From: Nocardiopsis algeriensis
GTDB taxonomy: Bacteria > Actinomycetota > Actinomycetes > Streptosporangiales > Streptosporangiaceae
Length of the DNA stretch: 64,000 bases
NCBI RefSeq assembly: GCF_014203695.1
Contig: NZ_JACHJO010000009.1
Location: 124,001 to 188,000, forward strand
Direction of reading: 5' to 3'
A program made the position numbers and the translations under genes. The notes under the pieces are model-generated. The model ran no database searches. It had not been told where the DNA came from and saw only the letters and a program-made list of their open reading frames with translations. This document shows, one piece after another, positions 2,544 to 48,864 of this stretch. Each line of letters opens with the position of its first letter. The first letter of the stretch is position 1.

Positions 2544-5432
<2,889 letters not shown>

Positions 5433-5512: not shown

Positions 5513-5604
5513 GGCTTCAGAGCGGCCTCCTCCGCGCGGTTCGTGGTGCCTGAGAGGTTACTGGGGAGTATTGCCCCGTCGGCGCCCCCTGCGGGGTCTC
5601 TCCC
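5513..5604 (-). promoter_or_regulatory. Glycine riboswitch aptamer (single) upstream of gcvP
   Basis: Read on the minus strand the leader contains, in order, GGGAGAG, then CGCCGACGGGGCAA, then CTCTCAGGCACC, then GCTCTGAAG. These are the conserved blocks of the glycine riboswitch (GGGAGAG ... CGCCGAAGGGGCAA ... CTCTCAGGCA ... CTCTGGA). Only one complete aptamer is visible; tandem aptamers are common in this class. It sits in the 5' leader of gcvP, the gene it would be expected to control. Confidence 0.85.
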
Positions 5605-5873
5605 ACGCGGTATCGACAGCCTGTTGACGCTGTGTACGCATACAAAGACAGGGCGAATGTCAGGTTTCATCCCTGTTGTGAGAACGACCGTACTCGATAC
5701 CGGTTCCCGAGGCGGAGTCCACCCGTGCGTTGGGCGCGTCACGCCGTGTCCGCGAGAGGAGGGGGAGGCCGTGTGGCCGTCCATCCACACGGACCCCCCA
5801 ACTCCTACTCTGCCACTACTCTCGGACAGTTCGGGGTGGGAGGATCCGGTGGCCGCCCCTCGGGCCGCGCGGG

Positions 5874-45474: not shown

Positions 45475-47703
45475 TCAGCCCCGCGCCAGGCGCAGCACGC
45501 GGGACACGATGCCCTCGCCCACGGCCGCGGTGAGAATCGACTCGGGATGGAACTGGACCGCGTACCAGCGCGCGGCGGAGTTCTCGACGGCCATGACCAC
45601 CGGCTCCTCCCCCTCCAGCACCGCGGTCACGTCGTAACCCTTCACCAGTTCGGGCAGCGAGTAGGTGGAGTGGTAGCGGGCGGCCTGGAAGGTGCCCCCC
45701 TCCCCCAGGCCGGCGAGCAGCTCCCCGCCGGAGACCCTCACCTGTCCGGGCTTGCCGTGGACGGGCTCGCCGAGGGTGCGCAGCTCTCCGCCGGCGTGCT
45801 CCACCATGCCCTGGAGGCCCAGGCAGACGCCGAAGACCGGCAGGCGGCGGGAGGCCAGCTCGTCGAGCAGCGCCGACATCCCGAAGTCGGAGGGCAGGCC
45901 CGGTCCGGGCGAGAGCACCACCAGATCGGGAGCCAGCCGGTCCAGCAGGGACGGGTCGAACCCGTAGCGGACGGTGGTGACCTCGGCCCCGTGGCGGCGG
46001 ACGTAGTCGGCGAGGGTGTTGACGAAGGAGTCCTCGTGGTCGACGAGCAGCACCTTCATCCCCTCGCCGGGCAGGTCGGCCGGGGCCGCGGCGGCCTCCT
46101 GCCGCTCCGCTGCGCCGTGCCCGGCCGCACTCTCCTCCTCGCCTTGGGCGAGGGTCTCCACCAGGGCCCGCGCCTTGAGGAAGGTCTCCCGCTCCTCCGC
46201 CTCGGGGTCGGAGTCGTAGAGCAGGGTGGCGCCCACGCGCACGGCGGCCACACCGTCGCGGATGTGCGCGGTGCGCAGGGTCAGGCCGGTGTTCATGGAG
46301 CCGTCGAAGTTCAGGACGCCGACCGCACCGCCGTACCAGCGCCTGGGGCTGGCCTCGTTCTGCTCGATGAACCGCATCGCCCAGGTCTTGGGCGCCCCGG
46401 TGACGGTGACCGCCCACATGTGGGTGAGGAAGGCGTCGAGGGCGTCGAACTCGGGACGCAGGACACCTTCGATGTGGTCGACGGTGTGGATGAGGCGGGA
46501 GTACATCTCGATCTGGCGGCGGCCGATCACGCGGACACTGCCCGGCTCGCACACCCGGGACTTGTCGTTGCGGTCCACGTCGGTGCACATGGTGAGCTCG
46601 GACTTCTCCTTGGGGGAGGCCAGGAGCTCCTCGATGTTCTCGGCGTCCTCCAGGGCGTCGCCGCCCCGGCGGATGGTGCCCGAGATGGGGCAGGTCTCCA
46701 CCCGCTGCCCGGCGCCCGGCTCCCCGCTGACCCGGACGAACATCTCCGGGGAGGCGCCGACCAGGTACTCGCCCTCGCCGAGGTTGAAGAAGAACTCGTA
46801 GGGGGCGGGGTTGCGCTCGCGCAGGCGCTCGTAGAAGCGGGCCGGCGAGGAGCAGCGGGCGAAGAGGCGGTGCCCCGGCACGACCTCGAACAGGTCGCCG
46901 CGGCGGAACTTCTCCTTGGCCTCGGCCACGATCCGGGCGTAGGAGCCGGGCTCGGGTCCCTCGGGCACCTCGCCGGCGACCACGGGCGGGGTCGGCTCGG
47001 TCCGGCGCTCCAGCCCGCGGGTGGTGGCCTCGGCGCGGGCGCCCGCGGCCGGGACGGTGAAGTCGTAGGTGTGGCGCACGCACGTCTCGCGCTTGCGGTC
47101 GCGCACGATGATCGCGTCGGGCAGGTGCAGGACCAGGTCGCGATCCTCGGGGTCGCGCTCGATGTGCTGCTCGATGGGTTCGAACTGGAAGGCCAGGTCG
47201 TAGCCGAAGGCGCCGTACAGGCCCAGGTCGGTGTCCTCAGGGCTGTGCAGGGCCGCCATGACGGCGCGCAGGGCGGTGAAGACGCTGGGGCGGCGGCTGC
47301 GCTCCTCCTCCGAGAAGAACTCCCCCGGGTCGGGTTCGGGGACGGTGACGGTGACCGCGCCGCCCTCGATGCCGGCCGGGTCGCCGCCCGCGTCGGGCAC
47401 GCCGGCCGAGCACAGGGCCTCGGCCAGGACGGGAAGCAGGACCCGGCCCCGGTCGTTGAGCGCGGTGGCGGTGACGCGGCGCCCGCGCGTGGTGATCTCC
47501 AGGCAGGGGTCGACGTAGCCCAGGTGCCAGCGGTCGTAGCGGCCCGGATACTCCATGCCGGAGGAGAGGACCCCGCCCCGGTGGTACTCGACCGACGCGA
47601 CGAGGTCGTCGAGGACCTCGGGGTCGCAGGGGGTGGTGGTGCGGTGGACGGTGACGCCGCCCTGGGTGCGGTAGGTGGTGGTGTGTACGTCGCTGGAGTT
47701 CAC
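45475..47703 (-). CDS. trpEG: Anthranilate synthase, fused TrpE-TrpG
   Basis: A 742-residue fusion that makes anthranilate from chorismate and glutamine. Residues about 1-530 are the TrpE chain ('GAFGYDLAFQFEPIE', 'PISGTIRRGGDALEDAENIE', 'DVDRNDKSRVCEPGSV', 'AVTVTGAPKTWAMRFIE'). After an Ala/Glu-rich linker the class I glutamine amidotransferase starts at 'MKVLLVDHEDSFVNTLADYV', with nucleophile Cys in 'GVCLGLQGM' and His/Glu in 'QFHPES'. Fused forms occur in rhizobia and streptomycetes, some in secondary metabolism. GTG 47703 has AAAGGA six bases upstream. A Trp attenuator in the leader implies control by charged tRNA-Trp and hence a biosynthetic role. Confidence 0.95.
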   Translation of the reverse strand: MNSSDVHTTTYRTQGGVTVHRTTTPCDPEVLDDLVASVEYHRGGVLSSGMEYPGRYDRWHLGYVDPCLEITTRGRRVTATALNDRGRVLLPVLAEALCSAGVPDAGGDPAGIEGGAVTVTVPEPDPGEFFSEEERSRRPSVFTALRAVMAALHSPEDTDLGLYGAFGYDLAFQFEPIEQHIERDPEDRDLVLHLPDAIIVRDRKRETCVRHTYDFTVPAAGARAEATTRGLERRTEPTPPVVAGEVPEGPEPGSYARIVAEAKEKFRRGDLFEVVPGHRLFARCSSPARFYERLRERNPAPYEFFFNLGEGEYLVGASPEMFVRVSGEPGAGQRVETCPISGTIRRGGDALEDAENIEELLASPKEKSELTMCTDVDRNDKSRVCEPGSVRVIGRRQIEMYSRLIHTVDHIEGVLRPEFDALDAFLTHMWAVTVTGAPKTWAMRFIEQNEASPRRWYGGAVGVLNFDGSMNTGLTLRTAHIRDGVAAVRVGATLLYDSDPEAEERETFLKARALVETLAQGEEESAAGHGAAERQEAAAAPADLPGEGMKVLLVDHEDSFVNTLADYVRRHGAEVTTVRYGFDPSLLDRLAPDLVVLSPGPGLPSDFGMSALLDELASRRLPVFGVCLGLQGMVEHAGGELRTLGEPVHGKPGQVRVSGGELLAGLGEGGTFQAARYHSTYSLPELVKGYDVTAVLEGEEPVVMAVENSAARWYAVQFHPESILTAAVGEGIVSRVLRLARG

Positions 47704-47757
47704 GGCCGGTCCTTTGGCGCTGGCGTTCGGTATGGGCTACGCCGGCCGGGGCCGTGG

Positions 47758-47833
47758 AAACGAGAAACGACCGCCGGTCCGGGGCGGTCGCTGCACGGGT
47801 ATGCGAAATCGGAGCACCGCCTAGGGGCGGCGC
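47758..47833 (-). promoter_or_regulatory. Trp attenuator: pause, antiterminator and terminator strands before trpEG
   Basis: Read leftward: strand 1 GCGCCGCC (47833-47826, overlapping the end of the leader peptide), strand 2 GGCGGTGC (47821-47814), strand 3 CGACCGCC (47790-47783) and strand 4 GGCGGTCG (47775-47768), followed by TTTCTCGTTT. Strands 1-2 pair (8 bp with one G-U), 2-3 share GGCGGT/ACCGCC, and 3-4 pair perfectly (8 bp) in front of the U-rich tract. This is the textbook alternation of attenuation: ribosome stalling at the Trp codons frees strand 2 to pair with strand 3 and prevents the terminator. Confidence 0.88.
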
Positions 47834-47865
47834 CACCACTGAACCGGGGTGGAGGAGTTTCGCAT
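47821..47865 (-). CDS. trpL: Trp leader peptide MRNSSTPVQWWRRP
   Basis: A 14-codon ORF with two adjacent Trp codons at positions 10-11, ending in TAG inside the pause hairpin. There is no Shine-Dalgarno. A TACACT hexamer ends seven bases before the ATG, exactly where a -10 box would lie for a transcript beginning at the A of ATG, so the leader is probably translated from a leaderless mRNA. It would stall the ribosome when Trp-tRNA is scarce and allow transcription into trpEG. Confidence 0.88.
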   Translation of the reverse strand: MRNSSTPVQWWRRP

Positions 47866-47930
47866 GGCCCCGAGTGTAGCGTGTGCCACTGCTCCGGGGA
47901 ACCCGGCGCGGGGACGCGCCGGAAGGACTG

Positions 47931-48506
47931 TCACGCGGGCATGCGGCTGATGAACTGCTGCGGGTCCAGGGCCGGGCGCCTGGACCTGTCGAGGCGGGCG
48001 CGCAGACGCTCGTCGATGCTGCCGACGTACAGCCAGCCCATCAGGTGCTCAGTGTCGGCCAGGCCGTGCACGGCCCGCACCTCGGGGGCGTTGGCGTGCA
48101 GCCCGGTGCGCCACATCACGCCCCAGCCGCACCGCCACAGCGCCAGCTCCAGCAGGTGTCCGACACCGGCGGCGGTGGCGTGCTGCTCCCACTCGGGCAC
48201 TTTCGGGTGCGGTTTCGGGCTGGCAACGACCGCGATGAGGAGCTCGGCGCGGAAGGGCTTGGTGTTGAACTCACCGGGCTCGCGCACGACACCGGCCGCC
48301 GCGTCGAGCGCCTCGCCGAGGCGGGCGCGGTCGTCGCCGCGCAGGGTGATGAGCCGCCATGGGCGCAGCACCTTGTGGTCGGCCACCGCGGAGACCGCCG
48401 GCAGCAGGCGCGCCAGTTCCTCGTCGCCGGGGGTCTCCGGTCCGACCTTCGACAGCGAACGCCGGGTGGCCATCGTCTCGAGAACCGGATCGGAGAAGAA
48501 CTGCAT
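47931..48506 (-). CDS. Nitroreductase family protein
   Basis: The 191-residue FMN-type nitroreductase fold shows 'LETMATRRSLSKVGPETPGD' at the start (the Arg-Arg/Lys FMN-contact pattern), 'VLRPWRLITLRGDD' and 'LGHLLELALWRCGWGVMW'-like segment in the second half, ending near the leader peptide. Members reduce nitro groups, quinones or flavins with NAD(P)H. Substrate unknown. ATG 48506 has only a weak GA-rich site upstream. It is transcribed toward the trp leader but the leader has its own promoter-like element. Confidence 0.85.
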   Translation of the reverse strand: MQFFSDPVLETMATRRSLSKVGPETPGDEELARLLPAVSAVADHKVLRPWRLITLRGDDRARLGEALDAAAGVVREPGEFNTKPFRAELLIAVVASPKPHPKVPEWEQHATAAGVGHLLELALWRCGWGVMWRTGLHANAPEVRAVHGLADTEHLMGWLYVGSIDERLRARLDRSRRPALDPQQFISRMPA

Positions 48507-48864
48507 GTACCCGTCTTTCCCACCGGGGCGGGTTCCGCCCCGGCTCCTCGCCCTGGTCACCGCGCAGACGGCGGCGCCCTGAAACCACCACCCACCATAC
48601 GAGGTGTTCGGCCTGGTCCCGCGCAGGTGAGGGAGGAGGCAGGGCGGGCTCCCGCCCCGGGGACGGGAAAGCGGGGGAAGTGTCCTTGGGGTGGGGAGCT
48701 CTGGGCCGTTGCCCCGGCGAACCCCTACCGTGGGGACACTCTCGCCCGCTTTTGTGGCCCTGGGGTGGGGTTCCGAGGCCATGTGCAACCGGATGAGCCT
48801 CTGCGGCGAGGCAGAAAGCATCGTCTGAGACCATGGCGGGGCACAGGGCCGGACCCGTCCTTGT
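48507..48864. other. Intergenic region (358 bp) holding an 86-bp imperfect inverted repeat
   Basis: No gene is seen. At 48668-48753 AAAGCGGG...GTGTCC...GGGGT faces ACCCC...GGACAC...CCCGCTTT, giving a long interrupted stem. It may be a terminator for the DUF262 gene (which ends at 48865) or a small mobile remnant. Confidence 0.5.

Follow-up and report, generated by a model that had tools for sequence, protein, structure and literature searches.

Introduction

Leaderless tryptophan attenuators in front of trpE or trpE(G) are already in print for S. lividans (PMC8079986) and S. meliloti (PMC7298713), according to the accessible parts of both papers. In S. lividans, trpL1 precedes a monocistronic trpE and its leaderless transcription was reported in a study with 5'-end RNA-seq, while trpS has a leader of its own, trpL2, with one Trp codon (PMC8079986). 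In S. meliloti, trpE(G) is described as the only attenuated trp operon (PMC7298713). Among actinomycetes, a Trp-dependent attenuator at the anthranilate synthase gene of S. venezuelae has been studied experimentally (Lin, Paradkar and Vining 1998, as cited in the accessible text of PMC4833913 and PMC1262725), and the trp attenuator of C. glutamicum is likewise cited as experimentally studied. A survey of 2005 had predicted trp attenuators in Actinobacteria (PMC1262725). The accessible text of that survey names trp operons for Corynebacterium and Streptomyces only, includes Thermobifida fusca in its genome set without naming it for trp, and describes no conserved terminator hairpin upstream of the mycobacterial cys operons. 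For C. diphtheriae, the accessible account identifies no transcription start for the trp leader and describes the ilvB leader as leaderless (PMC5784534). A study of actinobacterial trp attenuation from 2015 (Korolev et al.), known here as a citation, may already cover the type of leader described in this text. No paper on attenuation and leader peptides in Nocardiopsis was found in a literature search whose coverage left subscription papers mostly outside.

Here we compare with these systems a leader found in Nocardiopsis algeriensis, in the window that was analysed (the whole stretch of 64,000 nt). We read it as a classical ribosome-mediated, tryptophan-responsive transcription attenuator that would control trpEG from a leaderless transcript, and we give this reading a probability of about 0.93.

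Results

A tandem-Trp leader upstream of trpEG

The minus-strand ORF trpL and the stems upstream of trpEG are real features of this DNA, and they are conserved in relatives. The features of the locus are, in the order of the transcript:

47873-47878 (-): -10 hexamer TACACT, exactly 7 nt 5' of the trpL ATG
47821-47865 (-): leader peptide ORF trpL, MRNSSTPVQWWRRP followed by a stop, ATG to TAG read directly; putative transcription start at 47865
47858-47865 (-): 5' strand of a candidate outer helix, AUGCGAAA, containing the start codon (MFE and duplex tests)
47833-47838 (-): tandem Trp codons 10 and 11 (UGG UGG), from the sequence and the leader alignment
47826-47833 (-): strand 1, GCGCCGCC, with the Trp codons at its 5' edge
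47814-47821 (-): strand 2, GGCGGTGC / GGCGGUGC, partner of strand 1 or 3
47801-47808 (-): 3' strand of the candidate outer helix, UUUCGCAU, part of the linker that joins strand 2 to strand 3
47783-47790 (-): strand 3, CGACCGCC, partner of strand 2 or 4
47768-47775 (-): strand 4, GGCGGTCG / GGCGGUCG, 3' arm of the terminator
47758-47767 (-): U-rich tract, TTTCTCGTTT / UUUCUCGUUU, directly after strand 4
47710-47715 (-): AAAGGA, likely Shine-Dalgarno of trpEG (anti-SD duplex -6.7 kcal/mol)
45475-47703 (-): trpEG, 742 aa, anthranilate synthase components I and II fused in one protein (profile matches)

trpL encodes 14 residues, and 117 nt separate its stop codon from the start of trpEG. As in a classical trp attenuator, a trp biosynthesis gene follows closely on a small leader ORF that contains tandem Trp codons. 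The trpEG product matches NF010081 with 1063 bits (cut-off 645) and TIGR01815 with 932 bits (cut-off 739) and is closest, among the named matches listed, to that of Nocardiopsis sp. ATB16-24 (88% identity in the best segment). It is the first enzyme of tryptophan synthesis, acting at the first committed step; trpB lies on a separate contig. The pattern TACACT-N5..8-ATG-N6..36-TGGTGG has a single match in the 4.81-Mb genome, which is trpL itself (0 control matches), and a second WW leader with the exact TACACT pattern was not found there.

Two further observations concern other genes of this organism. Its own trpS (L114, 632-646) carries TAGGCT 6 nt before the ATG, as in leaderless genes, and no WW leader was seen by eye upstream of it. 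At 5527-5615 (-), Rfam RF00504 (glycine riboswitch aptamer) matches with 58.9 bits, immediately 5' of a same-strand ORF of 962 aa (2544-5432), which presumably resembles glycine dehydrogenase GcvP.

Strands, terminator and folding

The four strands, the 8-bp terminator stem and the U-rich tract that the sequence-only reading had announced were all located, at 47833-47758 (-), and TACACT does stand seven bases before the ATG (47878-47873). That reading included neither the fused TrpE-TrpG identity of the target gene nor the 8-bp complementarity between 5' end and linker described further below.

The mutually exclusive pairings 1:2, 2:3 and 3:4 are found in the sequence, in constrained folding and in the conservation of the leader. 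The UAG stop codon of trpL sits in the 1:2 loop. An 8-bp GC-rich stem followed by UUUCUCGUUU has the make-up of an intrinsic terminator, though its U tract is interrupted. The MFE fold of the 116-nt leader includes the 1:2 and 3:4 stems and reaches -51.2 kcal/mol (z -3.21), a value equalled by 0 of 200 shuffles (mean -40.7 kcal/mol). For the folding with a stalled ribosome, nt 14-45 were masked and the RNA was cut at nt 86, 90, 98 or 110. With the mask, the RNAs of 86 and 90 nt fold best into the 2:3 antiterminator (-12.5 kcal/mol), and once strand 4 is included (nt 98), 3:4 prevails with -20.8 kcal/mol vs the -12.5 of 2:3 at nt 86-90. Antitermination must thus be kinetic, since 3:4 beats 2:3 despite the mask as soon as strand 4 exists. 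Unmasked, the outer helix and 1:2 are formed at all four lengths.

Rfam includes a Trp leader family. When the region 47680-47940 was compared with the covariance models of Rfam 15 (4227 families), no match was obtained at E<=1.

Conservation in relatives

A whole-genome search for trpEG gave a match in 150 of 150 family genomes. The sample studied here comprises 110 trpEG loci, the best 30 of these 150 genomes, our own locus (L002) among them, and the best 80 of 465 named relatives. In this best-of-list sample, own locus counted, a leader ORF with WW or WWW precedes trpEG in 108 of the 110 loci. The 108 loci hold 97 distinct leaders, which become 96 after dropping L048 and 88 after merging those identical over the first 100 nt; they stand for distinct sequences and not for independent species, because both sources of loci overlap in organisms. 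In L048 (Nocardiopsis salina) TACACT and the ATG are conserved, but the WW codons lie in another frame than this ATG; the record contains an N inside the leader, which makes an error in the sequence likely. The two loci without a called leader, L022 and L061 (Streptomonospora mangrovi), have contigs of equal length and probably come from one assembly. They keep the WW codons and the stems, the usual stop codon is missing, and the reading frame continues through the terminator.

Alignment A1 contains 59 of the 96 leaders, all of WW type (53 distinct rows). In its terminator helix 100% of the lettered cells are paired, and two pairs show compensatory changes, AU to GC in 9 and CG to AU in 1 of the 53 distinct rows. 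The 1:2 helix is 98.6% paired, and RNAalifold predicts both the 1:2 and the 3:4 helices. A gap misplaced by MAFFT in strand 3 left one terminator pair gapped in 33 of 53 rows, for which reason the 6-bp terminator core was counted by motif instead; 88 of 88 distinct leaders have it. The core of 2:3, GGCGG with CCGCC, was located where expected in 79 of 88. Because strands 1 and 2 hardly vary, 1:2 and 2:3 themselves show little covariation. A rule of a hairpin plus four U was passed by 74 of 96 leaders, four of them (L013, L015, L047 and L055) with the match on the 1:2 hairpin and not on the terminator. The shuffles for this rule, single-base and scored against the observed hairpin, are uninformative for the 22 leaders without one.

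The covariance model R1, built from A1, was tried on 47 loci outside this alignment: 35 of the remaining 37 leaders (mostly Actinomadura; L105 and L109 are omitted) and 12 loci of trpL1 type. The best match falls at the leader in all 47 (E 1.7e-13 to 0.0055), and its start is offset from the chosen leader start in L078, L095 and L106. Stem conservation in related genomes had been named at the outset as a check on the attenuator, and the stems are indeed kept. In a class-wide search R1 matched 44 of 246 genomes; matches beyond the own family reach E 4.4e-7 at best, are not all at trpE, and are not counted as attenuators here. T. fusca carries this trp leader (L054).

GC-rich DNA folds readily, as the mean of the shuffled leaders illustrates, and one could imagine a conserved hairpin region with a WW ORF arisen by chance and no regulation by tryptophan. 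However, the WW or WWW ORF is retained in 108 of 110 loci while the other leader codons vary, the terminator has compensatory changes and the pattern is unique in the genome, which makes a chance ORF hardly credible. A Trp attenuator with a WW leader peptide, as proposed from the start, is borne out by the ORF, the stems, the trpEG target and the conservation.

The peptide tail WWRR is strongly conserved too. It would be compatible with attenuation that the released short RNA, the 14-aa peptide or both also act in trans, like rnTrpL and peTrpL of S. meliloti, where the described anatomy is alike, with a leaderless 14-aa trpL before trpE(G) and the other trp genes elsewhere (PMC7298713, accessible part). 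Nevertheless, the conserved RR codons double as RNA strand 1, so their conservation requires no peptide function, and we consider an additional role in trans improbable.

Similar trp leaders were also observed before very distant relatives of anthranilate synthase, in L119-L130 and L149, whose ORFs are cut by the end of the locus. The 12 loci L119-L130 are those of trpL1 type and were drawn from 16 genomes that match a motif of the S. lividans trpL1 peptide; R1 matches all 12. The ORFs behind their leaders score 94-127 bits with NF010081, below the cut-off, vs 1063 for trpEG, these scores being taken from partial ORFs; in L127 a PabB model outscores NF010081. In L149, from another family of the same class, TACCGT stands 7 nt upstream of the ATG of the WW leader MYATALGTWWRAS. 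Over 400 aa, the ORF that follows this leader is a distant anthranilate synthase match (NF010081, 111 bits). The L149 leader could be one more branch of this attenuator. It looks as if the attenuator had outlived a swap of the gene that it controls.

A probably leaderless transcript

Leader starts were chosen blind to the promoter, as the innermost ATG at least 5 codons before WW. Upstream of the starts so chosen, 90 of 96 leaders have TAnnnT at 6-7 nt (shuffled upstream sequence: 0.6%) and 92 of 96 have it at 5-9 nt (1.4%); position -1 is occupied by C in 82 of 88. Within 20 nt of the start, a Shine-Dalgarno-like core (GGAG, GAGG, AGGA or AAGG) precedes 1 of 96 leaders vs 59 of 96 trpEG starts, the latter a rough figure because these are protein-match starts unchecked as gene starts. 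Median anti-SD energies are -2.5 kcal/mol for the leaders and -6.0 for the trpEG starts. A conserved -10 box at 5-9 nt before the start together with no Shine-Dalgarno is what a leaderless leader-peptide attenuator should show. In S. lividans, the distance from -10 box to transcription start averages 6.3 nt, and 88.7% of spacers measure 5-7 nt (PMC8079986, accessible part). The promoter spacing, kept at 6-7 nt, and the near absence of Shine-Dalgarno-like cores support, indirectly, the leaderless transcript that the sequence-only reading had called probable, and we retain that grade for trpL.

The alternative is that the Trp attenuator has a conventional 5' leader: transcription would start upstream, from an own promoter further up or by read-through of a nitroreductase-like gene, and the peptide would start internally. 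A same-strand nitroreductase-like ORF (47931-48821) does end 65 nt 5' of the trpL ATG, no -35 element stands out by position upstream of the leaders, and the 20 nt upstream of trpL itself have an anti-SD energy of -5.0 kcal/mol, close to the -6.7 of trpEG. Set against this are the TAnnnT and Shine-Dalgarno counts across the leaders, the S. lividans trpL1 reported as leaderless (PMC8079986, accessible part), and a perfect 8-bp hairpin, CCGGCGCG-TCCC-CGCGCCGG, which follows the upstream gene at 47903-47922 (-), between it and the trpL promoter, though without a U tract. We therefore regard an upstream start as quite unlikely and continue with the leaderless transcript.

A candidate outer helix over the start codon

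The first 8 nt of the leader, AUGCGAAA, are exactly complementary to UUUCGCAU in the linker after strand 2, and the helix is present in the MFE. In A1, 85.0% of its cells are paired vs 14.7-46.2% in slid controls. In 69-72 of 96 leaders over two runs, no more than 5% of shuffled linkers pair with the first 12 nt as well as the native linker does; the second run gave 46 of 65 WW and 23 of 31 WWW leaders (69 of 96), the first 72. The leaders of trpL1 type, which have a different 5' sequence, passed in 9 of 12 cases. The 5' sequences differ between AUGCGAACC (Nocardiopsis and Actinomadura groups) and AUGUUCGCGC (Streptomyces trpL1 type) yet keep comparable pairing. Compensatory changes are visible by eye in L106 and L072, which start with GUG and have CAC opposite, and in L084, where position 4 has A for C and the opposite base is U for G; the whole duplex of L072 is no better than its shuffles (0.44).

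The covariation score of the outer helix is reached by 11 of 500 shuffles. Its pairs with double changes show no excess, 351 of 500 shuffles reaching their number, and RNAalifold does not predict the helix on A1. Linkers swapped between codon classes pair more weakly in three of four classes; in the AUC class, two of the three foreign linkers give better pairing than its own. The pairing test was failed by 24 of 96 leaders, including the clades L006/L051/L074 and L024/L025/L029/L056. For L078 the result is void because the start rule took an internal GTG as the start, while the model match starts 9 nt upstream at ATGCGAAAC.

We tentatively suggest, as an addition to the attenuator that could well turn out wrong, two further strands, the start-codon region (AUGCGAA..) and the linker after strand 2, whose pairing would bury the ribosome entry. 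The helix would close over this site soon after about 65 nt had been made, and the site would be the sole one because the transcript is leaderless. Consequently, the ribosome would load only in a brief window, re-initiation would be blocked and untranslated transcripts would end by default. The outer pairing crosses the 2:3 antiterminator and would therefore hold strand 2 in the off state as well. We propose the brief loading window because, according to the accessible part of a review, stable structure around the start codon reduces leaderless translation in some species (PMC9031893); the outer helix may thus keep late ribosomes off the start codon. If functional, it would offer a clean test of how ribosomes reach a leaderless start codon ahead of the folding that covers it.

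Discussion

The elements of the trpL attenuator and their conservation are seen directly, and by analogy with this well-studied family its regulatory behaviour, the response to tryptophan included, would be the following. Transcription would begin at or beside the A of the trpL AUG, and a ribosome would bind this 5'-terminal AUG. When Trp-tRNA(Trp) is scarce, the ribosome would stall at codons 10-11 and cover strand 1; strand 2 would then pair with strand 3 ahead of the synthesis of strand 4, and the polymerase would continue into trpEG. When Trp-tRNA is plentiful, the ribosome would reach the UAG in the 1:2 loop and leave, allowing 1:2 to form, as it would also do with no ribosome loaded. With 1:2 formed, strand 3 would pair with strand 4 and transcription would stop around 47767-47758.

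Nocardiopsis, Actinomadura and relatives are here shown to share a conserved trp attenuator that is probably leaderless. No Rfam 15 family matches the own copy, and R1 provides a covariance model that finds such trp leaders. The initial remark that well-preserved attenuators are seldom annotated in actinomycetes thus suits the copy studied here, but it has to be tempered by the prediction of trp attenuators in 2005 and by the reported trpL1 of S. lividans.

The likenesses that follow are taken from the accessible parts of the cited sources. The attenuators predicted for Corynebacterium and Streptomyces share with trpL the UGG repeats, the competing hairpins and a GC-rich terminator with poly-U (PMC1262725). 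That of S. venezuelae also stands before an anthranilate synthase gene in an actinomycete, a likeness drawn from citing statements and not from sequence. The mycobacterial polycysteine attenuators (Canestrari et al. 2020) resemble the probably leaderless trpL in their leaderless short ORFs with tandem codons for the sensed amino acid and in attenuation downstream, but they sense cysteine. In trpLE(G) of S. meliloti, compared by description and not by sequence, a 14-aa peptide, a trpE(G) target and an RNA that starts at the trpL ATG, as is probable here, are found again, in this case in an Alphaproteobacterium and with products that act in trans (PMC7298713). Finally, trpL1-trpE of S. lividans TK24 has a Trp leader (MFAHSTRNWWWTAHPAAH) reported as leaderless and, like trpL, hairpins and a U-rich stretch (PMC8079986), and differs from trpL in its three Trp codons, its peptide and its 5' sequence.
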